From IMG/VR virus record IMGVR_UViG_3300044835_000037, positions 1 through 43,199 of that record: a stretch of 43,199 bases of DNA, one strand, 5' to 3'. The position numbers and the translations under genes are program-made. Below are positions 2,415 through 43,199 of the stretch, piece after piece. The notes under the pieces are model-generated. The model did not search any database. It had not been told where the DNA came from and saw only the letters and a list, made by a program, of their open reading frames with translations. Every line of letters starts with the position of its first letter. Within the stretch, counting starts at the first letter, position 1. This stretch comes from a virus.

Positions 2415-2699
2415 TTAGAGAAAGTTTTGGCCGTTCCAGCGTTTCCAGCCGTCGCGGGTAAAGATCCGAACCTTGCCGCCTCGTCGCTCGATCCGGCTGG
2501 CGTATTCGCCGGTCTTTGCCCCATCGCGTAGGACATCGAACTCGTACTCGCCACGCGGACCGGGCCGCATGTCGAACCCAATCGTCCAGACCGATCCGCG
2601 TTCATCGATGATGACCAGCGCCGGCGGTACCGACACATACGCTTCGGTGAGGTGCGTTTGCTCGCCCTGCAGGCGCATGTAGCTGTGCTGATTCGTCAC
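2415..2699 (-). CDS. Small hypothetical late protein
   Basis: 94 residues, mixed strand and helix, with a DERGSVWTIGFD stretch and a basic, aromatic C-terminus (FTRDGWKRWNGQNFL) that looks like a short beta hairpin. No known family is recognised. It sits between two fibre-type genes; its start overlaps the stop of the 2696-3430 gene, so the two are probably translated together. Its size and place suggest a small adaptor or chaperone for the neighbouring surface protein, but this is a guess from position. Confidence 0.45.
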   Translation of the reverse strand: MTNQHSYMRLQGEQTHLTEAYVSVPPALVIIDERGSVWTIGFDMRPGPRGEYEFDVLRDGAKTGEYASRIERRGGKVRIFTRDGWKRWNGQNFL

Positions 2700-3430
2700 T
2701 GCGCCATCGTCGGTTGAAAGGCGTACGGCATGTACGGAACTTGCGCCGGAGCAGCAGCGCCGGCCGCCAGCGCCAGCGCAAAGGTTCCATAGCCCAAATT
2801 GGTCGCGCCTGCGACCGTGATCACTCCGCCATTCGTTCCGGAGGAACCCGCGCTCGCGTTCAACTTGTCGCTCGCCGTGATGACCGGCGAGAACTGAGCG
2901 GCGCCAAAGACGGAGTTGCCATTGCCATAACCCGCCGGCGGCGCATATCCTGGCGCGTTCGTGCCGTCGTAATACTGATTGCCCATCTGCAACACGATGT
3001 CATCGCCCGCCGCCGCGGTGAGGGCCGTGAATGCATAGGTCTCCGGCGAGGTGCCCGAAAAGGTGGTCGAGCTCGCCTGCGTCGCCGTAAACGGCGCAAC
3101 GGTGTTTCGCCCCGAATACACCCGGCAGTGCACAGTCTGGAAATCGTTGATGCTCGAGGTCACCGTATAGCTCGACGGCTCCGAGCCACCCGCGACCTTA
3201 TAGGCGATGCCCTGCGTGCCGACGCCGCTCACCGCCTGGTTCGCCAATCCGGAGATCGGAGCGAATCCGCTGGGATAGGTGAAGGTGGCCGTGGTGCCGC
3301 CGCCGCCGCCCACCATCAGGAGCACGATGTCTCCGGCCTGCGGGCCGGTGCCGCCAATCCCGGAGACCGTGACCGTCACGGTCGTGCTCGCCGACGTGTT
3401 GCCCTGACTTGCTACGCCGCGAAGTGCCAT
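2696..3430 (-). CDS. Probable tail-fibre or receptor-binding surface protein
   Basis: 244 residues, rich in Gly, Ala, Thr and Ser with regular alternation, as in jelly-roll or lectin-like beta sandwiches. Features include GDIVLLMVGGGGG near residue 35, TYPSGFAPI near 52, AGDDIVLQMG near 143 and APPAGYGNGNS near 165. Proteins of this build occur in phage tail and fibre clusters, often as surface-exposed domains. There is no signal peptide or catalytic motif. It lies directly downstream of the larger carbohydrate-binding-type protein at 3435-4670, so the two are likely part of one host-recognition set. Confidence 0.55.
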   Translation of the reverse strand: MALRGVASQGNTSASTTVTVTVSGIGGTGPQAGDIVLLMVGGGGGTTATFTYPSGFAPISGLANQAVSGVGTQGIAYKVAGGSEPSSYTVTSSINDFQTVHCRVYSGRNTVAPFTATQASSTTFSGTSPETYAFTALTAAAGDDIVLQMGNQYYDGTNAPGYAPPAGYGNGNSVFGAAQFSPVITASDKLNASAGSSGTNGGVITVAGATNLGYGTFALALAAGAAAPAQVPYMPYAFQPTMAQ

Positions 3431-3434
3431 TCTT

Positions 3435-4670
3435 TCACCAGGCCGATGTGAAGGCCGGCGCCGACAGATAAAAATCGTTCGTCGTATTGCTCGAGGTCTC
3501 GGTGATCCGAAATCCTCCGATAGTCCCCGGCAGCGAGCCGAAGGCCGTCAAGAGCGCATCGTAGACGGTCCAATTCGTCGGGACGCCGGACTGCAGTCCC
3601 CGGTCGTAGAGCGTATAGGGCGCCATCGCGACGAGATTCCCGACGGGTGTGTTGCTGGTATCGAGAAATTGCACCGAATAGCCGTACCCTGATTTGGTCG
3701 AGTACTGCGCGAAAGTGAAGTGCGCCAGGCCCGCGAGCGAGAAGTTGGCAAACCTGAATTCAACGATCGGATGCGACGCCGTCGCGTTGACATGCATGCA
3801 CAGCGCCGAGGCGACCGGGCTCAACGCCGGCGCCTGGTTCAGCGCATAGAACGCCGGGCCCAGCGTGTTCGGCGCGAACGACGTATCGAGCGTGCAACCG
3901 GTGAGGGTGGCACTCCACCCGGCGACCAGCGCATTGTGGTTGTAGACGAACTTCGTCGTGCCGCCAATGAACTTGACGTCATCGATCTTCGTCGGCCCGG
4001 CCGTGCTCTGATTGATGGCCCACTTGTAGTACGCGTCAGATCCCAAGGCGCCCAAGTGCGAGAGTGGATAGCGTCGGCCGGTGTTCCAGACGTTTGCGGT
4101 GAGCGCTCCCGTCACGCTCATGTCGTCGATCGCGGCGCACGTGCCGATGTCATCGCCGCCCGAACGCGAGTAATGAAAATACAGCGCATTGGTGGTCGCG
4201 GACGGCGGCTTGATCGCCAATTCGATCGCAACGCAGCCGGAGATGTCGAGGCCGAAGGGCGACGCATCATAAGTCGTGCCCTGCTGAAGGCCTGAGAACT
4301 GGCCGCCGACCGCCCAGGAATACGTATGCCCCGCCTGCGGCCCGTAGGGATCATTGAGATTATCGACCGCTCCGCCCGGGCTCGCACCGTTCGTCGTGAG
4401 CGACCAGAAGGTCGCGTTCGGCGGCTCCTGATTGGTGTTCGACGCGATGCACATGAAATTGTGCCCGGCGGCCGTGTCGTGCACGTAGTCGCCGGCGCTG
4501 TACGCCGTGACCGAACTCCATTCGGTGCAGGCTCCGAACGAGTAGTCGTGATCCTTGTGAAAGACGGGATTTAAGACCCCATCCGAATACATCAGGATGT
4601 CGCCAGTCCCCCCCTGGACGGCCGCGGCGGAGGCCGTTGCCGGCCGACTGGGCCGGAAAATGACGGTCAC
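3435..4670 (-). CDS. Probable receptor-binding tail protein with a carbohydrate-binding-type module
   Basis: 411 residues. Residues about 51-91 run from WSSVTAYSAGDYV to NATFWSL, the spacing of Trp, Gly-x-x-Val and a closing Trp-Ser-Leu seen in CBM5/12-like chitin-binding-type modules of phage fibres. The rest is long, beta-rich and Gly/Ser/Thr-rich, probably a sugar-binding or trimeric fibre region. The start is GTG at 4670, because an in-frame TAG lies three codons upstream. This is the first gene after the late promoter/terminator region, so it would be the first product under Q-like control. The receptor is unknown. Confidence 0.6.
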   Translation of the reverse strand: MTVIFRPSRPATASAAAVQGGTGDILMYSDGVLNPVFHKDHDYSFGACTEWSSVTAYSAGDYVHDTAAGHNFMCIASNTNQEPPNATFWSLTTNGASPGGAVDNLNDPYGPQAGHTYSWAVGGQFSGLQQGTTYDASPFGLDISGCVAIELAIKPPSATTNALYFHYSRSGGDDIGTCAAIDDMSVTGALTANVWNTGRRYPLSHLGALGSDAYYKWAINQSTAGPTKIDDVKFIGGTTKFVYNHNALVAGWSATLTGCTLDTSFAPNTLGPAFYALNQAPALSPVASALCMHVNATASHPIVEFRFANFSLAGLAHFTFAQYSTKSGYGYSVQFLDTSNTPVGNLVAMAPYTLYDRGLQSGVPTNWTVYDALLTAFGSLPGTIGGFRITETSSNTTNDFYLSAPAFTSAW

Positions 4671-4724
4671 CGCGCGCTACCCGCTGCCGATGGTGGGCTC
4701 ATGCGGGGTATACCTCAGAAATGC

Positions 4725-4750
4725 GAAAACCCGCTCGTGGCGGGTCTTTT
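4725..4750 (-). terminator. Intrinsic terminator at the head of the late operon (tR'-like)
   Basis: The stem ACCCGC/GCGGGT (4729-4734 and 4740-4745) with loop TCGTG has A-rich sequence on one side and T-rich sequence on the other, so it could act in both directions. On the minus strand the stem is followed by TTTTCGC. It lies between the Q-like gene and the first late gene, about 30 nt after the possible late start point. This is the arrangement of the lambda late terminator that Q overrides. Confidence 0.65.
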
Positions 4751-4779
4751 CGGGCCGATGTAAGACAAGGTTGACACCG

Positions 4780-4808
4780 GATATATACTTTTGGTGCGCA
4801 CTACGCAA
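4780..4808 (-). promoter_or_regulatory. Possible late promoter (PR'-like), minus strand
   Basis: On the minus strand, TTGCGT (4808-4803) and TATATC (4785-4780) are 17 bases apart. The -35 lies in the last codons of the Q-like gene. Matches to the sigma-70 consensus are only fair, as is common for activator- or antiterminator-dependent late promoters. Transcription from here would meet the hairpin at 4745-4729 within a few tens of bases. Position relative to the Q-like gene is the main support. Confidence 0.4.
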
Positions 4809-5265
4809 TCCCCTTGTGCCGGCCGCGCATGGCTTTTTTGACGTTGTTCACATTCACGTTCACCTTCAGGCGCTCGATAAACTCGGTCAGCAAGGTATGC
4901 AGTGACCACTGCGCCGCGTGCAACCGTTGCCGGTAGGCGAGGTAGGCCAGCCCAATTTCTTGGGCTTTCGAGCGGGACGGTCCGCCTTCCATGTACTCGA
5001 TAAAGACGATCTGATTCAGCCGTTGCGGCAGGAGCGCGATCTTCTGGTCGATCAACACGAAGTTGTCATCGTAGAGCTCAATCACCCATTCGCCGCTGCC
5101 GATGATCATCTCGATTTGCCACAGTTCGCCGGCGGCCGTCGGCCGCTGATCGATCCCGGTGTTGTGCGCCCATTTTGCCCAGCCCTCGAGCAGCTGATCG
5201 ATGAACTTCGTCTCGCCGGCGTCCTGGGTGTCTGTCGGCTGGAGGTAGTCGCGCGTGATGGCCAT
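4801..5265 (-). CDS. Q-like late antitermination protein (probable)
   Basis: About 154 residues, ATG at 5265 (a GTG codon lies just before it). The N-terminal part has W-A-K-W-A, as in Phage_antitermQ-type proteins (W-G-x-W). The second half has a helix-turn-helix look: IVFIEYMEGGPSRSKAQEIG, then LAYLAYRQRLHAAQWSLHTLL. Short antiterminators of lambdoid phages have this Y-x-x-G ... A ... L-x-x-A-x-x-x-L pattern. It is the last gene before the promoter/terminator pair that precedes the fibre and head genes, which is where lambda Q lies. It would let RNA polymerase read through the terminator into about 23 kb of late genes. A RinA/ArpU-type late activator is the main alternative. Confidence 0.6.
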   Translation of the reverse strand: MAITRDYLQPTDTQDAGETKFIDQLLEGWAKWAHNTGIDQRPTAAGELWQIEMIIGSGEWVIELYDDNFVLIDQKIALLPQRLNQIVFIEYMEGGPSRSKAQEIGLAYLAYRQRLHAAQWSLHTLLTEFIERLKVNVNVNNVKKAMRGRHKGIA

Positions 5266-5270
5266 CACGG

Positions 5271-5507
5271 TTAGTTCGATCTCGTCTCAAGCTTGCCGCA
5301 ATAATCGCCCGCCAACATGATCGGCCAGAGGGATTGCTGCAGCACTGCGAAGCCGCCCGTCCCGTCTGGAATGTACTGATACGACAAGGTCGGCGGATTG
5401 AAGCGGCAGATCTGCGTGATATTCCCGCCTGCCGACGGCACGACGCGATCGCTGTGAATGCAATCGGAGCAGCTGCGCTTGGTTTCAAATGTCGATTTTT
5501 CCATCAT
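5271..5507 (-). CDS. Small Cys-rich protein before the Q-like gene
   Basis: 78 residues from ATG 5507, chosen because an AGGAGG ribosome-binding site lies 6 bases upstream; an earlier in-frame start would put that site inside the gene. It contains CSDCIHS near the N-terminus, a single Cys in the ICRFNPP stretch and a Cys near the end (GDYCGKLE), a plausible four-Cys zinc site. The order C-x2-C ... C-R-F-N-P-P ... Y-C-G resembles small phage proteins of unknown function. It is co-transcribed with the replication and Q-like genes. Confidence 0.6.
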   Translation of the reverse strand: MMEKSTFETKRSCSDCIHSDRVVPSAGGNITQICRFNPPTLSYQYIPDGTGGFAVLQQSLWPIMLAGDYCGKLETRSN

Positions 5508-5596
5508 CAGCATCCTCCTACCCGATGTCTCCGAACTCTCACAACTGGTCAAGAAACGTACAGCCGGTATAATTGGCGGGCATAGACGGCACGCCC

Positions 5597-5830
5597 CTAG
5601 TCGCCACTACCGTCTACTGCCGCGGCCGGTCCGGCCCCCGAGTCCGCGGCGTTTTTCCTCGCATAATCCACCTCGCAAAACTGTTTCGCCTTCTCGAGCG
5701 TCTGGATCTCACGTCCGAGCACGCCATAGCGATCCTTCGTACGGATCCACACATCGTAGCCACGGACATTGCTGACGATCTGATAGGGATTCGACAGGTA
5801 GCGATTGCCTTGCTGGATCCAGGACCTCAT
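5597..5830 (-). CDS. Small hypothetical protein of the replication operon
   Basis: 77 residues from ATG 5830, which overlaps the stop of the DUF1376 gene (ATGA), so translation is coupled. The chain has a RGYDVWIRTKDRYGVLG stretch followed by a helix with TLEKAKQFCEVDYARK and an Ala/Gly-rich tail. It may be a small partner of the replication protein. No family is recognised. Confidence 0.55.
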   Translation of the reverse strand: MRSWIQQGNRYLSNPYQIVSNVRGYDVWIRTKDRYGVLGREIQTLEKAKQFCEVDYARKNAADSGAGPAAAVDGSGD

Positions 5831-6507
5831 GACGCCGCCCGGTAGGCTTCGCAAAATGCATTTCGCAGTCGTGGCTCTTCGCGATCGGAGCGCTGCTGAA
5901 TCCTCGGCCATCCACCGATCGCGTTGATCGCTGCCTGAATGCGGGGATCTCGCTTCTGGCCTCCGGAGTTCACGAGCTCATGCCAGATCAGGACCGCTTC
6001 GTCCTGCTCCCGTCTATGTTCCGAACGTCGTTGACGAACAGCCCCCTTTTCTAAAGGGGGTTTGGGGGATTTAGATATAGGAGATGGAGATGGAGATGGA
6101 GGCGAGGCGATATCGTCACGCACATTGCTCGCAGGCTGCGAGACTTCTGCGACACGCTTAGCGTGTCGCTCAGCGTAGCGCTTAGCGTTGGTCGCGGCGG
6201 CTCCAGCGGCCTTTTTCTGCCGCATGGAAAGCGCTTTTTCCCTATGCTGTTCAAGGCGTTGGTTGTAAATGAACTCCCCAGCATGCATGAACTTGATGGC
6301 GATCGAGGGCCAGATGGCATCGAACTCCTCCTGTGTGATTCCAAGGAGGCGCGCGAGTACATCGGGCGCTCGCGGCAGGCGTCCCATCTCCCATTGGAAG
6401 TCCAATAGCTCACGGTATGCGCCTCGCTCAGCGATACGCAGAGCGCGAGTTGACGCAATGAAGTCACGCGGGAACCAGGGCATCATGGCGAGAGAACCGC
6501 CACTCAT
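5827..6507 (-). CDS. DUF1376 phage replication-initiation-type protein
   Basis: 226 residues. The N-terminal domain contains MPWFPRDFIASTRAL, then ERGAYRELLDFQW, then RLPRAPDVLARLLGI and EEFDAIWPSI, a clear DUF1376 pattern. Such proteins take the place of lambda O-type initiators in many prophages (YdaU class). A basic coiled segment follows (RQKKAAGAAATNAKRYAER), then a Pro/Ser-rich linker near residues 135-152, and a C-terminal helical region. The linker is encoded by the repeat patch at 6042-6098, which may be the origin, as in lambda O. It lies in the leftward early operon behind the Cro-like gene. In-frame ATGs at 6486 and 6483 are alternative starts. Confidence 0.75.
   Translation of the reverse strand: MSGGSLAMMPWFPRDFIASTRALRIAERGAYRELLDFQWEMGRLPRAPDVLARLLGITQEEFDAIWPSIAIKFMHAGEFIYNQRLEQHREKALSMRQKKAAGAAATNAKRYAERHAKRVAEVSQPASNVRDDIASPPSPSPSPISKSPKPPLEKGAVRQRRSEHRREQDEAVLIWHELVNSGGQKRDPRIQAAINAIGGWPRIQQRSDREEPRLRNAFCEAYRAAS
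6042..6098. other. Repeat and inverted-repeat patch inside the replication gene, possible origin
   Basis: A perfect 8-bp inverted repeat (CCCCCTTT at 6042-6049 and AAAGGGGG at 6053-6060) is followed by a second G-rich run, an AT-rich stretch at about 6069-6079 and three tandem GAGATG hexamers at 6081-6098. In lambdoid phages the origin lies inside the initiator gene and is made of short repeats next to an AT-rich stretch. The repeats also encode a Pro/Ser linker, so simple coding slippage is the rival explanation. Confidence 0.35.
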
Positions 6508-6722
6508 CGGCGGCGTCCCTGAGTGTCCCCACTGATGGCCTCAGCCGGGGCCAGCGTCGCCAGTAGCCTAGCGGCACGAATCTTTGCAACAGCGATCTCG
6601 TGCATCGCATCCCGGAGAATTTCTTGTTTCGTGCGTCCAGTGGTCAGCGACTCGGATTCGAGCCAGGCGATCGTTTCGGCCGTGATCTTGAGCCGCTTCA
6701 GATCCTTGAGGTCGAGGCTCAT
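6504..6722 (-). CDS. Small helical, possibly DNA-binding, early protein
   Basis: 72 residues: LKDLKRLKITAETIAWLES, then GRTKQEILRDAMHEIAVAKI, then a helix rich in Ala and Leu. The early strand-like stretch followed by two helices resembles ribbon-helix-helix regulators, but no family is certain. Its stop overlaps the start of the DUF1376 gene. In lambda the matching position (after cro) is held by cII; nothing in the sequence shows that this is a CII protein. Confidence 0.55.
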   Translation of the reverse strand: MSLDLKDLKRLKITAETIAWLESESLTTGRTKQEILRDAMHEIAVAKIRAARLLATLAPAEAISGDTQGRRR

Positions 6723-6784
6723 TCTGTCAACGCCTTGCGTGAATATGTCTTCTGGAAAAGCCGAAGGTATTCCCGGATCGTCAC
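6719..6784 (-). CDS. Possible 21-residue peptide between the Cro-like and helical genes
   Basis: A GTG at 6784 opens a frame whose product ends REYLRLFQKTYSRKALTE; its TGA overlaps the next ATG (ATGA at 6722-6719). It fills the 84-base gap after the Cro-like gene. The ribosome-binding site is weak. The coupling suggests it is translated, but it may be only the tail of a decayed gene. Confidence 0.3.
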   Translation of the reverse strand: MTIREYLRLFQKTYSRKALTE

Positions 6785-9191: not shown

Positions 9192-10139
9192 ATGAACGCG
9201 ACCGCACAGACCGTGGCCCGGAAAAAGAAAGACGATATTCGCGCGATCGAGCACGACCTGACGCTGCTACGTTCGCGGCTTGTCTCGGCGCTGCCGGCGC
9301 ATGTGCCGGTGAAGCTGTTCATCGCCACAATTCTGACCGCCTGTGCGGTCGAGCCGAAGCTCCTGCAATGCGATCGGCATTCGCTGTTCCTCGCTGCCCT
9401 AAAGGCCGCGCGCGACGGGCTGCTGCCGGATGGCCGTGAGGCCGCGCTCGTCCCGTTCAAGGACAATAAGCTCCGCATTCTGGTCGTCGTCTATAACCCG
9501 ATGTACCCTGGGCTGCTCAAGAAGATTCGCAATTCCGGCGAGCTCGCAAGCCTGTCGGCGAACGCCGTGTACGAAAAGGACGTTTTCGAGTACGAGCTCG
9601 GCGACAACGAGCGCATCTTGCATAAGCCGGTGATGTCCGGCGCGCGCGGCAAGCTCTTCGCCGCCTACGCGATCGCCAGGACCAAGGACGGCGGGGTCTA
9701 TCGGCGCGTACTGTCCGCCGAGGACGTGCTCGCGATCAAGGCCTTTTCGAAGTCGTCGGACAAGGGGCCCTGGTCCGGGCCGTTCGAATCCGAGATGTGG
9801 ATCAAGTCGGCGATTCGGCGCCTCTCGAAGATTCTGCCGCAGTCGACCGATATCAACAATTACTTGAACAACGGGCCGCCGCTGCCGGACGACGAGGTTG
9901 CTTCGGTGCTTCCGGACGCGACCGGCGTCGAAGGTGCGCACGCGATCGAATTCGATCTGCGCACCCGGGCCATGCTCACCCTCCGGGAAGAGTCCGATTC
10001 GCTCGAGCTCCTGAACGGCAATTGGAACGGCATCAAAGCCGAGTATCAGAAGCTCAGCGCCGAGATCCCGCTCGAACTCGAGGACGTCTACAACATGTCG
10101 TTGGAGCGCCTCAAAGAAGCCGCGGCGGCGCCGAAGTGA
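9192..10139 (+). CDS. recT: RecT-family single-strand annealing protein
   Basis: 315 residues, the normal size of RecT. Diagnostic segments are LPAHVPVKLFIATILTACA near residue 35, CDRHSLFLAALKAARDGLLPDGREAALVPF at 60-90, YNPMYPGLLKKIRNSGELA at 100-118, and a C-terminal part with ESEMWIKSAIRRLSKILPQS. RecT binds single-stranded DNA and anneals homologous strands, used in phage recombination and in making concatemers. The usual exonuclease partner (RecE or YqaJ type) is not seen next to it. A GGATCC-overlapping Shine-Dalgarno sequence (AAAGGA) lies at 9180-9185. Confidence 0.92.
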   Translation: MNATAQTVARKKKDDIRAIEHDLTLLRSRLVSALPAHVPVKLFIATILTACAVEPKLLQCDRHSLFLAALKAARDGLLPDGREAALVPFKDNKLRILVVVYNPMYPGLLKKIRNSGELASLSANAVYEKDVFEYELGDNERILHKPVMSGARGKLFAAYAIARTKDGGVYRRVLSAEDVLAIKAFSKSSDKGPWSGPFESEMWIKSAIRRLSKILPQSTDINNYLNNGPPLPDDEVASVLPDATGVEGAHAIEFDLRTRAMLTLREESDSLELLNGNWNGIKAEYQKLSAEIPLELEDVYNMSLERLKEAAAAPK

Positions 10140-10707: not shown

Positions 10708-10919
10708 CCCTGACGCGTCAATTGGTTGGCGTTCCGGAGCTCTATCGAGGAAGCCTGATTTCCGTTCGGTTTCTGGGTCCGGATTTTCTCTGCTACGTCG
10801 GCGATATCGAGATGAGCGGCTTCTACATCAGCCCTGCCGCCGCGGCGGCCGCCGGCCAGCGCTACATCAACGATGAGATCGATGCAAAGGAAAAGTCCCA
10901 GGCGAAGGGGAAAAAGTAA
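10704..10919 (+). CDS. Small hypothetical protein upstream of csrA
   Basis: 71 residues. Beta-rich N-terminal part (LVGVPELYRGSLISVRFLGPDFLCYVGD), then FYISPAAAAAAGQRYINDEIDAKEK, a helix. Its stop overlaps the csrA start (TAATG), so the two are translated together. The family is not recognised. Confidence 0.6.
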   Translation: MTLTRQLVGVPELYRGSLISVRFLGPDFLCYVGDIEMSGFYISPAAAAAAGQRYINDEIDAKEKSQAKGKK

Positions 10920-11110
10920 TGCTGATGCTCAGCCGCCGCGCCGGCGAAGTCATCCGGATCGGGGACGACATCTGGGTCACCATCGTGGCGGTCGACGGCG
11001 CCCAGGTCCGCGTCGGTGTGGTGGCGCCTAAGCAAATTCGGGTTGACCGCGAGGAAGTCCGAGAACGCCGCGACGCCGAAAGGTGGGCGAAGGGTGGTGG
11101 CGGGGCATGA
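10919..11110 (+). CDS. csrA: CsrA-family RNA-binding translational regulator
   Basis: 63 residues, very close to cellular CsrA along its length: MLMLSRRAGEVIRIGDDIWV, then VRVGVVAPKQI and VDREEV. The residues that bind GGA RNA are kept: Leu4, Arg6 and the Arg of the DREE motif (Arg44 in E. coli numbering). The His of the usual VHRE motif is Asp here. CsrA dimers bind GGA motifs near ribosome-binding sites and block or stabilise mRNAs. A phage copy could redirect host Csr control or regulate phage messages such as the hairpin-started gene at 8804. It overlaps the genes on both sides. The C-terminus is Gly-rich. Confidence 0.93.
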   Translation: MLMLSRRAGEVIRIGDDIWVTIVAVDGAQVRVGVVAPKQIRVDREEVRERRDAERWAKGGGGA

Positions 11111-11754
11111 ACGCCCTCGCCATCAAAGCCGCGCCTCTACCGATCCGCTACGACGCGGCGGTCCAGGCCTTGGCGGTCTGCGAGCGCATCGATGAGTGCA
11201 AAGAGTGGGCGGATCGGGCCGCGGCGCTCGAAAGCTACTACCGGCAGTCGAGTAACGTCGAGATGGAGCAAAGTGCCCGACGGATTCGGCTGCGGGCCAA
11301 GCGCCGCGTGGGCGAACTCCTGCTAAAGATCGAGGGCCCAGCGCCGCGGAGCGCCAAAGGGTTCATCCAGGCGGGCGCCCAGACGCCCAGAGGCCGCGCC
11401 GCCCGGGTGGCGGGCTTGAGCAAGATCCAGTCCCGGGCAGCCGTGCGCATCGCTCGCATTCCGAAGGAAATCGCCGAGGCGGCCATTGAAGCCACGCCGC
11501 CGGCGTCCGAGACGCAATTGCTCCGGATCGCGCCCACGGATCCCAGATTCAACGGCCATACCTTCTGCGGCAGTGCCAGCTACACCAAGCTGGTGCGCGA
11601 AGTGAACGGCCTCGCGATGTTTTCGTATTGGTGCCAGAAGAACCCGGCGTCGGAGCTATCGCAGGCATTGAACAGCGAAGAGCGGTCGCGCTGCCTCAAG
11701 CACGTGGCCGAGATCCGGCGATGGCTCGGCGATTTTACTCAACCCGCTTCTTAA
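11107..11754 (+). CDS. Conserved phage protein, helical, possible DNA- or replication-associated
   Basis: 215 residues from ATG 11107 (overlap with csrA). The N-terminal half is a long helical array (ALAVCERIDECKEWADRAAALESYYRQ, then RRIRLRAKRRVGELL), a sequence often seen in phage proteins related to ParB-like or methylase-accessory proteins: residues 1-120 resemble the helical region that precedes R-x-x-G-x-A-A-R-V-A-G-L-S. The second half has a Cys and aromatic-rich part (FNGHTFCGSASYTKL and FSYWCQK). No catalytic motif is seen. It lies between csrA and the DUF2303 pair. Function unknown. Confidence 0.6.
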   Translation: MNALAIKAAPLPIRYDAAVQALAVCERIDECKEWADRAAALESYYRQSSNVEMEQSARRIRLRAKRRVGELLLKIEGPAPRSAKGFIQAGAQTPRGRAARVAGLSKIQSRAAVRIARIPKEIAEAAIEATPPASETQLLRIAPTDPRFNGHTFCGSASYTKLVREVNGLAMFSYWCQKNPASELSQALNSEERSRCLKHVAEIRRWLGDFTQPAS

Positions 11755-12123: not shown

Positions 12124-12944
12124 TGGATCAAGAAGCAGTACAGGCCGTTTTAGAGGCGATTCGAGCGCCCGTCGTCATCGATGTCGACGTCGAGCATAAG
12201 TTCGCGCTCGTTCCCGATGGCATGAAGGCCATCGATTTGAAGGGAATGCTCCCGGCGCCGAGTCGAATCAAACAGACCGTCGAGATGTTGAGCGTGCCGG
12301 CGCTTCTCGCCTATCTGAATCGGTTCAGGACGGTGGAAAGTGTCATTTTTGCCAATGAGCCGGCGGCAGCCTACGAAGCGGTACTCGACTACCATCCGAA
12401 GGCGATCAACCTCGACACCGCGAGTGAACGCGGCAAGATGGATCACGTCGCCGCCTACCGCTGCCCGCAGTCGGACCAGTGGAAAATCTGGAACGGCGCC
12501 AACGGCAAGATGGTGAATCAGGTGGAATTTGCCACCTTCATCGAGACGAACCTGCGGGACATCGCGCAGCCGGCCGCGGCGGATTTCCTGCAGCTGTGCC
12601 TGCAGCTGCAAATTCACAAGAGCGCCGAGTTCCAATCCGACATCCGCATGGACAACGGGCAGACGCAGTTCCGCTATGTCGAGAACATCAAGGGCACCAG
12701 CAATTCGAAGGCTGGCGACTTGGAGATCCCGCAGGGATTCACGCTGCGCCTCCCGGTGTTTGTCGACGGCACGACCTTCCCGCTCGAGGCCCGGTTCAAG
12801 TACCGCATGGTCGAGGGCAAGCTGTCCTTGGGCTATGACCTGATCCGCCCGCAGGAGACGTATCTCGCGGCGATCAAGGTCGTCACGGCGGAAATCATCA
12901 AAGGCATTCCGGACTTGCCGGTCTATCAGGGCGTGCGGAGGTAA
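12123..12944 (+). CDS. DUF2303 (YfdQ-like) phage protein
   Basis: 273 residues of the DUF2303 type: LPAPSRIKQTVEMLSVPALLAYLNRF, then YHPKAINLD, then RGKMDHVAAYRCPQSDQWKIW, FATFIETNLRDIAQPAAADFLQ and PLEARFKYRMVEGKLSLGYDL. E. coli YfdQ and many prophages carry this family. It is often beside recombination genes; its biochemical role is not settled. The chain has no nuclease signature that I can see, so it is not an obvious replacement for the missing RecT-partner exonuclease. Confidence 0.85.
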   Translation: MDQEAVQAVLEAIRAPVVIDVDVEHKFALVPDGMKAIDLKGMLPAPSRIKQTVEMLSVPALLAYLNRFRTVESVIFANEPAAAYEAVLDYHPKAINLDTASERGKMDHVAAYRCPQSDQWKIWNGANGKMVNQVEFATFIETNLRDIAQPAAADFLQLCLQLQIHKSAEFQSDIRMDNGQTQFRYVENIKGTSNSKAGDLEIPQGFTLRLPVFVDGTTFPLEARFKYRMVEGKLSLGYDLIRPQETYLAAIKVVTAEIIKGIPDLPVYQGVRR

Positions 12945-13268: not shown

Positions 13269-14956
13269 CCTTCAAGATCCCCGCCGGCGTCCTGGCCCAG
13301 CACGTCATCGCCCTCGGCAAGACCGGCGCTGGCAAGAGTTCGGCGATGCGGGTCCTCGTCGAAGGCCTGCTCGACGCCGACAAGCCGGTTTGCATCATCG
13401 ATCCGAAAGGCGATTGGTGGGGCATCAAGTCCTCGGCCGACGGCAAGAAGGCCGGCTATCCGATCGTCATTTTTGGCGGCGAGCATGCGGACGTCCCGAT
13501 CAATGCGCATTCCGGCGCCAGCATCGCGGAGCTGATCGCGACCGGCAATCGATCCTGTCTCATTGATCTCGGCGGCTGGATGGTGGGCGAGCGGACACGG
13601 TTTTTCATCGAATTCGCCTCAATGCTGTTCAAGCACACCCGCGGCGCGCGCCACCTGGTGATCGATGAGGTCCACAACTTCGCACCGCAGGGCAAGATCT
13701 TAGATCCCGACGCCGGCAAGATGCTGCACTGGACCAATCGCCTGGCGAGCGAGGGCCGCGGCAAGGGCATCACGATCATTGCCGCCTCCCAGCGGCCGCA
13801 GAAGGTGCACAAGGATTTCGTGACGAGCTGCGAGACGCTGATCGCGATGCGCGTCATCCACAAGCTCGACCGCGATTCGATTAAGGACTGGATCGACGGC
13901 TGTGCGGATCCGGCGAAGGGCAAGGAGGTGCTGGCGACACTCGCGCAGATGAAGCGCGGCGAGGCCTGGATCTGGTCGCCGGAGGTCGAGTACGGGCCCG
14001 AACGTATCGCCTTCCCGATGTTCAAGACCTACGACTCGTTCAAACCTCAGGCCCAGGATGTGAAGCCGCTCAAGGGCTGGGCGGACGTGGATCTCGACGA
14101 CGTCAAGACGAAGCTCGCCACGGTCGTCAGCGAGGCCCAGGCCAACGACCCAACAATCCTTAAGAAGCGGATCGCCGAGCTCGAGCGGCAGGCGAAGCAA
14201 GCGCCGGTGGAGAACGCCAATACGACGGAGCATCTGCGCGCCTCTTACGATAGGGGCTTCTCTATGGGGATCAACAAAGGCCGCGCGGAAATCGTCAATC
14301 GCTTGGAGGTCGCGTACGGCGAGCTCGACGCCTGGTTCGCGCGTCGACCGACAATGCCGATGTTTCCCGATATAGATACGCCTCGGCAGACAAAAGTCCC
14401 ACACACAGCCGCGCCGAAACCCGTTATTACCCCGGCAAAAACCCGGTTATTACCCGGTACAAAACCCCCACATGAGGGCAACGGCTCGACCGAAGTCGGC
14501 GCCGGCGGCAAGCGCCGGATCCTGGCCGCCCTCGCGCAGTACCCGGACGGGATGAACCAGCGAAAGCTCTCGATTCTGGTCGATATCGCGCCGAAGGGCG
14601 GGACCTGGCGCACCTACATGGCGGAGCTGCGCGGCAAGGGCTGGGTCGAGGGCGGCAAGGATCACATGCGGATCACGGGCGCCGGCCTGGGTGCGCTCGG
14701 CGATTGGGAGCCGCTGCCCACCGGCGACGAGCTCGTCCAGTACTGGCGCAACCGCCTGGGCGACAGCGGCAAGCGGGCGATCTTCGATGCGGTCGTTGAG
14801 GCCTATCCCGACTCGATCGACGTCGATCGAGTGTCTCAGATCACCGGCATCGCGCGCGCCGGCGGCACCTGGCGAACCTACATGGCCGAGCTGCGCGGGC
14901 TCGGTATCATCGAGGGCCGCGGCGATCTGCAGGCCGCGGCGGACCTTTTCTCATGA
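13265..14956 (+). CDS. HerA/FtsK-like ATPase with a duplicated winged-helix C-terminus
   Basis: 563 residues. The Walker A is GKTGAGKS at residues 18-25, IDPKGDWWG at 45-53 is typical of HerA/FtsK translocases, and Walker B is LVIDE at 131-135, followed by ASQRPQKVHKD. A helical middle (residues 290-370) follows. The C-terminal 150 residues hold two repeats of a winged-helix-like unit, both containing GGTWRTYMAELRG. HerA-type hexamers pump DNA and often pair with a NurA nuclease; none is visible here. In the recombination operon it may resect, load or move DNA for RecT. Several Pro-rich spacer residues lie at 375-410. Confidence 0.8.
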   Translation: MTFKIPAGVLAQHVIALGKTGAGKSSAMRVLVEGLLDADKPVCIIDPKGDWWGIKSSADGKKAGYPIVIFGGEHADVPINAHSGASIAELIATGNRSCLIDLGGWMVGERTRFFIEFASMLFKHTRGARHLVIDEVHNFAPQGKILDPDAGKMLHWTNRLASEGRGKGITIIAASQRPQKVHKDFVTSCETLIAMRVIHKLDRDSIKDWIDGCADPAKGKEVLATLAQMKRGEAWIWSPEVEYGPERIAFPMFKTYDSFKPQAQDVKPLKGWADVDLDDVKTKLATVVSEAQANDPTILKKRIAELERQAKQAPVENANTTEHLRASYDRGFSMGINKGRAEIVNRLEVAYGELDAWFARRPTMPMFPDIDTPRQTKVPHTAAPKPVITPAKTRLLPGTKPPHEGNGSTEVGAGGKRRILAALAQYPDGMNQRKLSILVDIAPKGGTWRTYMAELRGKGWVEGGKDHMRITGAGLGALGDWEPLPTGDELVQYWRNRLGDSGKRAIFDAVVEAYPDSIDVDRVSQITGIARAGGTWRTYMAELRGLGIIEGRGDLQAAADLFS

Positions 14957-18158: not shown

Positions 18159-18845
18159 ATGACCAATCTCGACATTTTCAATCCGACGAAGGTTCGAGGA
18201 CTGTTCGAGGCGCTGACCACAGAACGGGACAAATTGGCCGACACGCTATTTGCCGCCCAGTCGGCGCTGCTGACGGAAGGCATGCGGGCGGACACGCTCG
18301 CCGCCAAAGTTGCGAGCATGGATGGCGAACTGAATCAGGCGGCGGACGAATCGGCCATCAAGGCGGCCCGCATTGAGATGCTTGAAGCTGAGCTTGCCCA
18401 CTGGAAGGACTGCCATGGTGTGACCGGTGATCATTTGGTTGTGGCAAAGAGGCGCATCGCGACGCTTGAGGCTGCGCTACCGCACGTTCTGGATTTTCGC
18501 TTGGAATCCGTGTTCGACGCGAAGGGCACCTACACGCAAGCGAAGGCGGATGAATGGTCGAAGCGTCTGGCCGATTTTGCCGCCGCTCTCCCACCCCGCA
18601 CCGGAGGCGAAATGAGCGAATGGCAACCGATAGATACCGCGCCCGCGTTGGTCGAAGGACTGTTCTACATCCGCCCGCGCAAGGCGGAGGAGCAATGGGT
18701 TATTGACGGTGAAAAGCCGGTGGACTTGAGGGAGCCGCCACGGATTGTATTTGGCAGGAATCGCGCTGCGTGGTCTAGCCTTTGGATCGCAACGCACTGG
18801 ATGCCGTTACCCGCACCACCTGTCGATGGAGAGGTGAAGCCGTGA
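18159..18845 (+). CDS. Coiled-coil protein fused to a DUF551-like domain
   Basis: 228 residues. Residues 1-145 are a long heptad-type helix (ERDKLADTLFAAQSALL ... LEAELAHWKDCHG). From about residue 150 a DUF551-like domain begins: MSEWQPIDTAPALVEGLFYI to IATHWMPLPAPP. DUF551 is usually a separate small protein, and the internal MSEWQPIDT (ATG 18612) looks like its normal start, so this may be a gene fusion or an internal start may give both products. A DUF551-like paralogue lies beyond attP (23127-23504). Confidence 0.6.
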   Translation: MTNLDIFNPTKVRGLFEALTTERDKLADTLFAAQSALLTEGMRADTLAAKVASMDGELNQAADESAIKAARIEMLEAELAHWKDCHGVTGDHLVVAKRRIATLEAALPHVLDFRLESVFDAKGTYTQAKADEWSKRLADFAAALPPRTGGEMSEWQPIDTAPALVEGLFYIRPRKAEEQWVIDGEKPVDLREPPRIVFGRNRAAWSSLWIATHWMPLPAPPVDGEVKP

Positions 18846-19255
18846 GCGATCCGATCCGCTTAAGCGTTGGGCAAATCTACGATCAGTACGCCAGGTCAAT
18901 TTTGGACAAGAAGGACCTGTTCGTCGATGCGCCTTCGTACGATGCGCTCGCCGCCAGTCTTAACGCCGCCCTGCAGGATCGCAACGACGAATGTCGATTG
19001 CGTCAGGGAGCCGAGAAGCGCTACGCAGAAGGATTTGACCGCATCGTAACGCTCGCCGCTGATCGTGACTCGCATCAGCGCGAAGCCATTCGACTGCTGA
19101 CCCGCATCCGCGACCTGGAGGCGGCACTGCGCAAATACGGCGGCCACAGGGTTATCTGCGCTTACGTGGATCGCGAGGCGCCGTGTGATTGCGGTTGGGA
19201 AGTCGCCCTGAGCGGGGCGAGGACAGCTACCGACACGGAGGGTGTCGAACCATGA
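18842..19255 (+). CDS. Coiled-coil hypothetical protein
   Basis: 137 residues from the GTG that overlaps the previous stop. A first domain (VGQIYDQYARSILDKKDLFV) is followed by YDALAASLNAALQDRNDECRL, an extended helix to residue 100, and a short Cys/Asp end (APCDCGWEVAL). The end is the GGAGGGTGTCGAACCATGA type of array junction. It has no known family. Confidence 0.55.
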   Translation: MSDPIRLSVGQIYDQYARSILDKKDLFVDAPSYDALAASLNAALQDRNDECRLRQGAEKRYAEGFDRIVTLAADRDSHQREAIRLLTRIRDLEAALRKYGGHRVICAYVDREAPCDCGWEVALSGARTATDTEGVEP

Positions 19256-19524
19256 CAGAGATGTGCAGCGTTTGCCGTCGGTCGAAAGGCGATCACTTCG
19301 TCGCAGTTGGCGGCCGCCTTGCGTGCCCGCCCATCCGAACGTATTTCACACCGTGCAAGCACGAGCGACGGCAGGGAACCGCAGTTATTAGCGTAGACGG
19401 TACGGGTTGGAGCGACACGACATGTTCGGATTGCGGACAGCGAATAGTAATGGGCTCGCCGCCAGGTCATCAAGCCGATGGAGAAGCAGCCACCGGCCCA
19501 GCTAACGCAAAGGGGAAGCCGTGA
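19252..19524 (+). CDS. Zinc-ribbon-type small protein with repeated gene end
   Basis: 90 residues from ATG 19252. CSVCRRSKGDHFV near the start and TCSDCGQRIVMG near residue 65 make a two-Cys-pair ribbon. The last 12 residues (TGPANAKGKP) come from the repeated gene end, whose DNA form GCTAACGCAAAGG..GGAAG holds the Shine-Dalgarno sequence for the next gene. Confidence 0.6.
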   Translation: MTEMCSVCRRSKGDHFVAVGGRLACPPIRTYFTPCKHERRQGTAVISVDGTGWSDTTCSDCGQRIVMGSPPGHQADGEAATGPANAKGKP

Positions 19525-19721
19525 CCGAGATTGACGAAGTACGCTGCCAGCGCGACGTGGCGCGGGCCGACAATATCCGGCTGCGCCGCGAGTGCGAGCG
19601 GCTGAAAGAGTTGCTCCATTACGCGCAAGCCGCGATTGATGGGGAGTACCAACTGCGGGTAAAGCCAGCCACCGGGACAGCTAACGCAAAGGGAGAGGGG
19701 AAGCATGGGCCAGGACGTTGA
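19521..19721 (+). CDS. Small coiled-coil protein with repeated gene end
   Basis: 66 residues, GTG start overlapping the previous stop. The helical body (VARADNIRLRRECERLKELLHYAQAAID) is a coiled coil. The tail PATGTANAKGEGK is the array's shared C-terminal tail. The frame runs 17 bases into the next gene. Confidence 0.5.
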   Translation: MTEIDEVRCQRDVARADNIRLRRECERLKELLHYAQAAIDGEYQLRVKPATGTANAKGEGKHGPGR

Positions 19722-19923
19722 ACTGTGGAGGCGCGAACTGCGCAAAGCCGGCTGGTCTGCAATTCGTCATGACGTTTGGAAGGCCCCCTGCGGCTGTCTA
19801 TACCGAGGTCCATGGCGAGCCTGGGTCACGATGCTTGAAATGAAAGCCAATATGATTTTGGGAGTCCTTCCGCACGTTCACGCAGCCAGCGGGCCGGCGA
19901 TGACGGGGGAGACGAGGCCGTGA
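19705..19923 (+). CDS. Small hypothetical protein
   Basis: 72 residues. Its ATG follows the repeat GGGAGAGGGGAAGC, an excellent ribosome-binding site. WRRELRKAGWSAIRHDVWKAPCGCLYRGPWRAW is followed by a hydrophobic helix and an ASGPAMTGETRP tail. The C-G-C knuckle with Trp residues is the notable core. The tail is shared, nearly exactly, with the gene at 20421-20636. Confidence 0.55.
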   Translation: MGQDVELWRRELRKAGWSAIRHDVWKAPCGCLYRGPWRAWVTMLEMKANMILGVLPHVHAASGPAMTGETRP

Positions 19924-20300
19924 GTATGCCGCACCACCAATGCCAGTGCCGAATCTGCGGACGATTTGCTTACGATATGTATGCCCCAATGGACGCGCCG
20001 ATCCGCGCGAGGGAGGCCCGTGAGCAGGCAGAACATGAGGCCGCGATGGCGGCGTACCAAACGCCTGAATTTAAGGCAGCGCTCACGAAGATTTGCCTGG
20101 AGGCTATGCGTGCAGCCGCCCTGAGCGCACCGGGGACGGCTGCGGGAACGAAAGATGATCCTAACGCACCGTTCCGCTGGATCTGCATCCATTGCACGAC
20201 GGTCAACGCGGTGGATATTGATGTGTGCGTAGGCTGCAGAAAGCCTCGAACCCTAGCCAGCGTGGCGACGCCGGCTGACGCAAAGGGAGAGGGGAAGTGA
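19920..20300 (+). CDS. Zinc protein with a RanBP2-type finger and a Cys knuckle
   Basis: 126 residues from a GTG overlapping the previous stop. The N-terminus has C-Q-C-R-I-C-G. Residues about 40-60 are helical. Near residue 85 the chain WICIHCTTVNAVDIDVCVGC fits W-x-C-x2-C-x3-N-x6-C-x2-C, the zinc-finger pattern of RanBP2-type (NZF) domains, known for protein or single-stranded RNA binding. The C-terminus is the shared tail TPADAKGEGK. An NZF-type finger in a phage early gene is unusual. Confidence 0.6.
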   Translation: MSMPHHQCQCRICGRFAYDMYAPMDAPIRAREAREQAEHEAAMAAYQTPEFKAALTKICLEAMRAAALSAPGTAAGTKDDPNAPFRWICIHCTTVNAVDIDVCVGCRKPRTLASVATPADAKGEGK

Positions 20301-20386
20301 TCCGCGCACATATATTTGCGGCGCTAATGACGTTGCTTTCTATGGCTTTCCTGATTCTCTTGACCTTGGCGATACTGCGATCATGA
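20297..20386 (+). CDS. 29-residue membrane peptide
   Basis: GTG at 20297 overlaps the previous stop (GTGA). The product is almost all hydrophobic (FAALMTLLSMAFLILLTLAI), one membrane span with short polar ends. Small single-span peptides of this type are common in phage early operons and hard to assign. The Shine-Dalgarno sequence is the repeat GGGAGAGGGG. Confidence 0.45.
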   Translation: MIRAHIFAALMTLLSMAFLILLTLAILRS

Positions 20387-20421
20387 CCAGCGGGACAGCT
20401 AACGCAAAGGGAGAGGGGTAA
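20383..20421 (+). pseudogene. 12-residue remnant of a deleted array gene
   Basis: ATG 20383 opens a 12-codon frame whose product MTSGTANAKGEG is just the shared C-terminal tail of the array genes, followed by TAATG into the next gene. The frame looks like the tail of a gene whose body was lost, leaving the ribosome-binding site for the next gene. It may also be a very short coupling peptide. Confidence 0.4.
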
Positions 20422-20636
20422 TGCATCCACGCGAACTCCGTGAGCCTACCGCGCCGATGATGTGCGAGGCGTGTCTGCGCGGCGACCATCCGAATTGCGG
20501 AATGCAGACGTGGTGCCGATGCGAGCACCCGCTTGACGGCGATCATGGCTACTACGGGCCTGATCCGGCCGACGCAGACTCACAATCCGCCGCCCCAGCC
20601 AGCGGGCCGGCGATGACGGGGGCGAAAGATGATTGA
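20421..20636 (+). CDS. Cys-rich small zinc-type protein
   Basis: 71 residues. MCEACLRGDHPNCGMQTWCRC then HPLDGDH: C-x2-C, single Cys and C-R-C with His, able to hold one or two zinc ions. The C-terminus (PASGPAMTGAKDD) repeats the tail of the 19705 gene. The start overlaps the remnant's stop (TAATG) and uses the repeat ribosome-binding site. Confidence 0.55.
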   Translation: MHPRELREPTAPMMCEACLRGDHPNCGMQTWCRCEHPLDGDHGYYGPDPADADSQSAAPASGPAMTGAKDD

Positions 20637-20865: not shown

Positions 20866-20999
20866 GCAAGTGGGATGCAGTGGCATGGCTCGCCGCCGCA
20901 TTGATGGTTGCGTCGATGGCTTCGTGTCAGGCAGTCGAACAGTGGTCAGCCCACAAGTACCGTGAATGCCCAGCACACAGTGGAGAGGTGAAGCGGTGA
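20862..20999 (+). CDS. 45-residue membrane protein
   Basis: GTG 20862 overlaps the previous stop. DAVAWLAAALMVASMASC is a hydrophobic segment near the N-terminus, possibly a lipoprotein-like signal (A-S-C), followed by a soluble HKYRECPAHSG end. The DNA end is GGAGAGGTGAAGCGGTGA, again of the shared junction type. Confidence 0.5.
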   Translation: MSKWDAVAWLAAALMVASMASCQAVEQWSAHKYRECPAHSGEVKR

Positions 21000-22924: not shown

Positions 22925-22967
22925 TGCCCCGGGCAGGAATCGAACCTGCGACCTAGCGCTTAGGAGG
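22925..22967 (-). other. attP core: 3' part of a tRNA-Arg(CCU) gene
   Basis: On the minus strand the bases from 22967 to 22925 match the 3' part of a tRNA: the anticodon loop CTCCTAA (anticodon CCU), the 3' strand of its stem, GCAGG-TTCGATT-CCTGC as a perfect T arm, and acceptor strand CCGGGGC then A. The 5' half is absent: the bases before the loop do not pair with GCGCT. This is typical of attP in phages that integrate at the 3' end of a tRNA gene and restore it. The exact core length needs a host junction. Confidence 0.85.
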
Positions 22968-23021
22968 CAATACGCCGATCGAGCTTAACAGTTTGGCGGG
23001 ACTCGAAAATCCGGATTTTGC

Positions 23022-42818: not shown

Positions 42819-43158
42819 GGACCTTCGAACGATCGGTGGGTGTCATGCCCATCACAGATAAACACTTTATGAATTGAGCGATCAACGCCGATTCCGGCAG
42901 CACATCGAACGGCAGCCGACGAAAGTTGAACAAGAGCTTCGTTGCCATTTCGAGCAATGCGCGATCGGCAGATCGCAATACGTTGATCGGTGCATGCTCG
43001 GCGAGCTCGTGCCACGTCGCGTGCAATTCGAGATTCATCGAAGGCGGCGGATCGCCGACCGGCCCGCTCGTTTGCGGATCTTTGCGTTTGCGATTAGGAT
43101 TTTTCGCGAACGCGCCATTGCGCGCGAGCTCCGCCGTGGGCTTGCGAGGTCTTGCCAT
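42739..43158 (-). CDS. terS: Terminase small subunit (P27 type)
   Basis: 139 residues. MARPRKPTAELARNGAFAKNPNRKRKDP is the P27 family start, followed by TWHELAEHAPINVLRSADRALLEMATKLLF and a MGMTPTDRSKV end. It recognises the packaging site and brings it to TerL. The start lies in the terminal repeat (also seen at 84-86), so the gene is complete only at this end. A 56-base gap to the HNH gene may hold part of the cos site. Confidence 0.85.
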   Translation of the reverse strand: MARPRKPTAELARNGAFAKNPNRKRKDPQTSGPVGDPPPSMNLELHATWHELAEHAPINVLRSADRALLEMATKLLFNFRRLPFDVLPESALIAQFIKCLSVMGMTPTDRSKVHAPQEKVDNPFAKFAGKAAEARKPVH

Positions 43159-43199
43159 GCCTAAAAACTGCCTATTTTAGTTTTGTGGATGCGTGTATT
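43073..43199. repeat. Terminal direct repeat, right copy
   Basis: Identical to bases 1-127. It joins the right end to the left end, so minus-strand transcription entering from the HNH gene at 143-562 continues directly into terS at 43158 and on through the head genes. Confidence 0.93.

Follow-up and report, generated by a model that had tools for sequence, protein, structure and literature searches.

Short DNA patches shared by the ends of unrelated accessory genes in three phages, candidate boundary sequences for gene exchange

Whether mosaic joints of phage genomes at gene boundaries come from boundary sequences that guide the exchange, or from random joining followed by selection, is an old question. 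Boundary (linker) sequences, like the patches described here, are short conserved junction sequences and have been proposed as sites of homologous recombination (PMC3029335); they are absent at most mosaic joints (PMC3233612, PMC3029335). In Island3, gp68 and gp67 match at the DNA level over their last 18 residues, and gene 68 is missing from Brujita (PMC3029335). Start-associated sequences, described in cluster K mycobacteriophages and in Microbacterium cluster EF, are repeated and over-conserved, hold a ribosome-binding site and precede unrelated non-structural genes (PMC3203893, PMC7302621). Sequence is also shared at the 3' ends of several genes in the variable regions of diversity-generating retroelements, and integron gene cassettes provide an analogy, though only that, as swappable small genes between repeated joints.

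The window (the whole stretch of 43,199 nucleotides analysed here) is a virus record and has a direct terminal repeat of 127 nt; positions 1-127 are identical to 43073-43199, which suggests a circular or terminally redundant genome. It encodes a phage integrase, a RecT-family protein, a terminase and a CsrA homologue (10919-11110, also encoded in the related phages G1, G2 and L064 discussed below), and the sole integrase examined is a phage tyrosine integrase. Adjoining the integrase, 22926-22975 resembles a fragment of tRNA-Arg and is a possible attachment site; no full tRNA was found there by ARAGORN. The accessory genes at 17.5-21.9 kb are small, lie on a single strand and nearly all overlap by 1-17 nt, so that translational coupling is preserved, as a first-pass annotation of this DNA had proposed. 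A simple gene finder overlooked several small genes at about 19.3-20.6 kb, and the gene lists there were therefore hand-set from open frames (Table 1).

Table 1. Gene-end patches, the genes they end and the candidate recombinase of the window.
Feature	Position	Strand	Evidence
RecT-family single-strand annealing protein, candidate recombinase	9192..10139	+	Pfam RecT 1.9e-28; phrog_148
Patch D (GEVKP-stop): end of gene 18159-18845, ribosome-binding site and start of next gene	18824..18849	+	26 nt identical to L064 gene end
Patch C (AALSGARTA / VALSGARTA), near end of gene 18842-19255	19201..19227	+	24-bp exact run with G1 13318 and G2 11889
90-aa gene, end is patch A variant ANAKGKP-stop	19252..19524	+	translation
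Patch A copy 1, shortened: CAGCTAACGCAAAGGG then GAAGCC	19490..19521	+	repeat family D3; 16-bp exact run with other copies
66-aa gene, end ATGTANAKGEGKHGPGR-stop	19521..19721	+	translation
Patch A copy 2, with ribosome-binding site for 19705	19669..19700	+	exact run 28 bp with copy 4 and with G2, 26 bp with G1
72-aa gene in A-to-B slot, end ASGPAMTGETRP-stop	19705..19923	+	translation; body unrelated to other slot genes
Patch B (ASGPAMTG) copy 1	19883..19912	+	repeat D20; exact run 27 bp with copy 2, 25 bp with G1
126-aa gene: N-terminal part, then zinc-ribbon-like part, end is patch A (ADAKGEGK-stop)	19920..20300	+	translation
Patch A copy 3, GCTGACGC variant	20263..20294	+	repeat search, pattern match
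Candidate 29-aa hydrophobic ORF, coding status uncertain	20297..20386	+	codon score does not favour its frame
Mini-ORF MTSGTANAKGEG-stop, 12 codons, patch A only; ATGA and TAATG overlaps join two genes	20383..20421	+	translation; same layout in G1
Patch A copy 4	20387..20418	+	32-bp exact run with G2
71-aa gene in A-to-B slot, MCEACLRGDHPNCGMQTWC body, end ASGPAMTGAKDD-stop	20421..20636	+	translation
Patch B copy 2	about 20591..20625	+	30-bp exact run with G1

A sequence similar to GCTAACGCAAAGGGAGAGGGG, patch A, is found at or after the ends of four genes (19490-20418), in agreement with the four junctions reported in the first-pass annotation. It is exact at 19680-19700 and 20398-20418 and has one mismatch at 20274-20294, and its 21-nt core was absent from 100 dinucleotide shuffles (0 expected). 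The tail ANAKGEG, described as common to unrelated proteins, is exact at copies 2 and 4, but copy 1 gives ANAKGKP-stop and copy 3 ADAKGEGK-stop, and copy 4 is not on a protein body, as it forms a mini-ORF (20383-20421) after the stop of the preceding small ORF. The second tail, ASGPAMTG (patch B), is indeed shared by two genes (19705-19923 and 20421-20636), with an exact run of 27 bp. Beyond these two tails we found further gene-end patches, C and the weaker D, the latter with a weaker copy at about 20981-20998. The upstream protein takes its last 8-12 residues from the patch, unless the patch encodes a mini-ORF; patches A, B and D also contain the ribosome-binding site for the following gene and precede an overlapping stop/start; for patch A, where this site had been predicted, it was seen in every copy. 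The 90-aa gene (19252-19524) has no match in Pfam or PHROG. Within the 126-aa gene, just 5' of the zinc-ribbon part, lies a patch-C-like stretch (AALSAPGTA, 20114-20160), possibly a former gene end turned fusion point.

When 2.9 million contigs were searched, exact patch A was found in two other uncultured viral contigs, G1 (41 kb) and G2 (44 kb). Patches B and C are present in both as well (B in a diverged form in G2), again on unrelated genes, and the order C-A-B is kept in the window, G1 and G2 (3/3 phages). The comparison suggested by the first-pass annotation thus turned out as it had anticipated, with two phages that have A, B and C in the same order and unrelated genes between them; related phages with the same genes at the same places, and no repeats at other junctions, were not seen. 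The A-to-B slot holds 19705-19923 and 20421-20636 in the window, 13637-13849 in G1 and 12267-12530 in G2, and these four gene bodies have no detectable similarity to one another. Over the cassette stretch the window, G1 and G2 match almost only at the patches; outside it G1 and G2 are up to 93% identical. The patches are identical over 24-32 bp, although other matches between the window and G1 reach only about 77-80% identity. The region has two features of boundary sequences, a short conserved junction sequence common to mosaic phages and differing genes between the same boundaries. With unrelated genes sharing the patches and the same slots occupied by different genes, the patches have the appearance of short homology joints for the swapping of accessory genes.

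Only these three phages were found with patches A, B and C; no near-identical pair differing by one cassette only was found, in searches from which near relatives may be missing, and no single exchange was caught. Degenerate patterns at the peptide level matched 36 viral stretches for patch A and 15 for patch B, and in stretches other than the window, G1 and G2 none of these matches was a copy of the patch DNA at a gene end. A scan of genome contigs gave 8 matches (rough chance estimate about 15), none of which was, by inspection, a gene-end patch in a prophage. Known phage records gave only two weak partial matches to a 53-nt patch A query (51-53% of the query covered), and the cassette gene bodies had no match in phage and plasmid collections.

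The sharing of sequence is concentrated at gene ends. Among unrelated ends in the three phages (gene lists hand-set from open frames, four pairs with known homology excluded), at least 14 identical bases were shared in 14/374 gene-end pairs, as compared to 0/963 interior pairs and 0/321 start pairs; elsewhere in the window at least 14 nt were shared by 1/2926 end pairs. Across 61 surveyed loci (39,614 gene pairs) shared 14-mers were found at the ends in 12 pairs, at the starts in 17 and mid-gene in 5, and 10 of the 17 start-sharing pairs belong to one phage, L115. That phage has, at 2506-4560, a counterpart of the patches at gene starts, a repeat similar to GCAGTCACCCCGCGTCCCAGCC in 7 copies, mostly at the starts of unrelated small genes (MTEQSPRVPA...), and several copies contain an inverted repeat, TGACTG-AG-CAGTCA, which spans the upstream stop codon.

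In several genes the ends vary independently of the bodies. A homologue of the zinc-ribbon-like part of 19920-20300 occurs in L142, where it ends in patch D (ASGEVKS-stop) and not, as in the window, in A, and the body of 20421-20636 has homologues in L137-L141 with other C-termini and without patch B. G1 12229-12498 and G2 10985-11371 have an N-terminal part in common (57% identity) and different ends. In G2, but neither in the window nor in L064, patch B stands before the ATPase gene, whose homology ends at the start and stop codons. Identity between patches takes in silent positions, and the copies differ by N-to-D, R-for-G and indels as well as by silent changes. In G1 the gene upstream of patch A has a strong coding score and terminates before the patch, which makes up a mini-ORF (MTANAKGEGTP-stop); patch A at 20383-20421 of the window probably lies outside its upstream gene in the same way. 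Because patch A of G1 is outside the upstream gene and the copies differ mostly by coding changes, we conclude that the unit is DNA, not peptide.

These observations bear on the possibility that selection has kept the tails on many proteins as functional peptides, serving as a tag, degron or binding motif. Unrelated proteins of all three phages do end in the same peptides; however, their DNA is identical including silent positions, the differences include coding changes and indels, the G1 patch is outside the gene and homologues elsewhere do without a patch, which makes this explanation very improbable. We give as little credence to regulation at the RNA level, e.g. by phage CsrA binding to GGA motifs over the shared ribosome-binding sites. 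Homologues of CsrA are encoded in the window, G1, G2 and L064, and ANGGA is present in patches A and D, but patches B and C lack it (by inspection), GGA belongs to any strong ribosome-binding site, patches A and B, the two that were tested, are no better folded than shuffles, and no Rfam match was found. If a single ancestor had undergone a simple tandem duplication and the gene bodies had then diverged, this would fit the near-equal spacing (A2-A4 718 bp, B1-B2 713 bp), but such a history is hard to reconcile with bodies that have no similarity next to ends that are identical at silent sites, or with still other bodies in the slot in the other phages, and we consider it extremely improbable.

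Alternatively, the patches may be kept for translation and copied because they are functional, as has been proposed for start-associated sequences. In this view the double ribosome-binding site (GGGAGAGGGG) is strong and coupling proceeds by re-initiation; exchange would then occur by illegitimate recombination, and selection would retain only products with a good junction. Every copy of patch A provides the following gene with its ribosome-binding site and runs into an overlapping start, and patch D is little beyond a ribosome-binding site and a stop. Start-associated sequences, too, are linked with the ribosome-binding sites of different gene families (PMC3203893, PMC7302621), and most phage mosaic joints are without boundary sequences (PMC3233612). 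Against this, the identity reaches 15-20 nt upstream of the ribosome-binding site, in sequence without known translational role, patch C, with 24-29 identical bp, does not lie at a start site, and selection on translation alone leaves the fixed C-A-B order in three phages unexplained. As a full account we find this rather unlikely. A role in translation may contribute, but the upstream half of the patch and patch C stay unexplained by it.

With moderate confidence, we instead favour the patches being short boundary sequences for the exchange of accessory genes by an annealing recombinase in a mosaic region of temperate phages. The patches at the 3' ends of accessory genes would be the pairing sites; as the same few patches recur within and between phages, an annealing recombinase could pair them, and the gene between two paired patches would be exchanged, added or deleted, in a recombinant product that retains frame, stop, ribosome-binding site and coupling. 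The pairing enzyme could be RecT in the window and a Sak4-like protein in G1 and G2. The minimal pairing length is 23-27 bp for the lambda annealing protein and 31-34 bp for RecA (PMC3945230), and the exact patch runs, 25-32 bp, are at or above the minimum of the annealing protein and mostly below that of RecA. Pfam RecT had no match in G1 or G2. These phages instead have an AAA_24 protein, with a weak RecA match in the G2 protein and the same gene in G1, which we take to resemble Sak4 and which is a candidate for this role. Since the run lengths fit the pairing minimum and each phage has a RecT or a Sak4-like candidate, recombination at the patches is plausible. The swapping by homologous recombination put forward in the first-pass annotation is partly supported, the run lengths being suited to phage annealing recombinases; we infer both that homology-directed recombination at the patches produced the pattern and which enzyme performed it. 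The further description as a cassette system was an overstatement, as there is no sign of a dedicated enzyme or site, and ordinary short-homology recombination together with selection for an intact frame and ribosome-binding site is enough.

Copies A1, A3 and B in G2 share only 10-17 bp, which is under the pairing minimum, and may therefore be old or otherwise formed; many junctions in the same region have no patch, and thus illegitimate recombination must also act. A joint that supplies both the minimum homology for the recombinase and the ribosome-binding site of the next gene would allow new genes to be slotted in and expressed at once. It is conceivable, although we regard it as doubtful, that the phages have a modular assembly grammar made up of a few standard joints at gene ends, and if so, new accessory genes should enter at A-to-B or C-to-A positions.

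Among the described systems, gene 68 of Island3 has the same anatomy as a single case; here about ten genes in three phages carry patches of three to four distinct kinds, the order is conserved, and the same slot holds four unrelated genes. In comparison with start-associated sequences the patches are longer, lie within the upstream coding end, are of several types and have no inverted repeat and few copies. A conserved repeat at the ribosome-binding site, a few nt before the start codon, is what we see for patch A (6/6 copies) and not for patch C, and by inspection the patch sequences differ from the 13-bp start-associated consensus GGGATAGGAGCCC or GGGAAAGGACCCC. The relative L072 has at 2869-6758 a likely diversity-generating retroelement, with a reverse transcriptase ORF and three target genes ending ECFVRAVRSSQ-stop. 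Because it shows how a retroelement shares gene ends, this explanation was tested, and no reverse transcriptase (PF00078) was found in the window, G1, G2 or L064 (G000, G001, G002, G004), the control L072 being positive. As opposed to the joints of integron cassettes the patches sit inside coding ends, and a structured attC-like site was not found, patches A and B folding no better than shuffles; a known RNA family was likewise rejected, with no Rfam match for the patches. The boundary-sequence model itself is already known, and what appears to be new, relative to the open-licence literature, is how densely the patches occur, that they are of several types in a conserved order, and that their slots contain different genes. 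With several boundary types in three phages and lengths near the pairing minimum, the region therefore makes the guided model directly testable.
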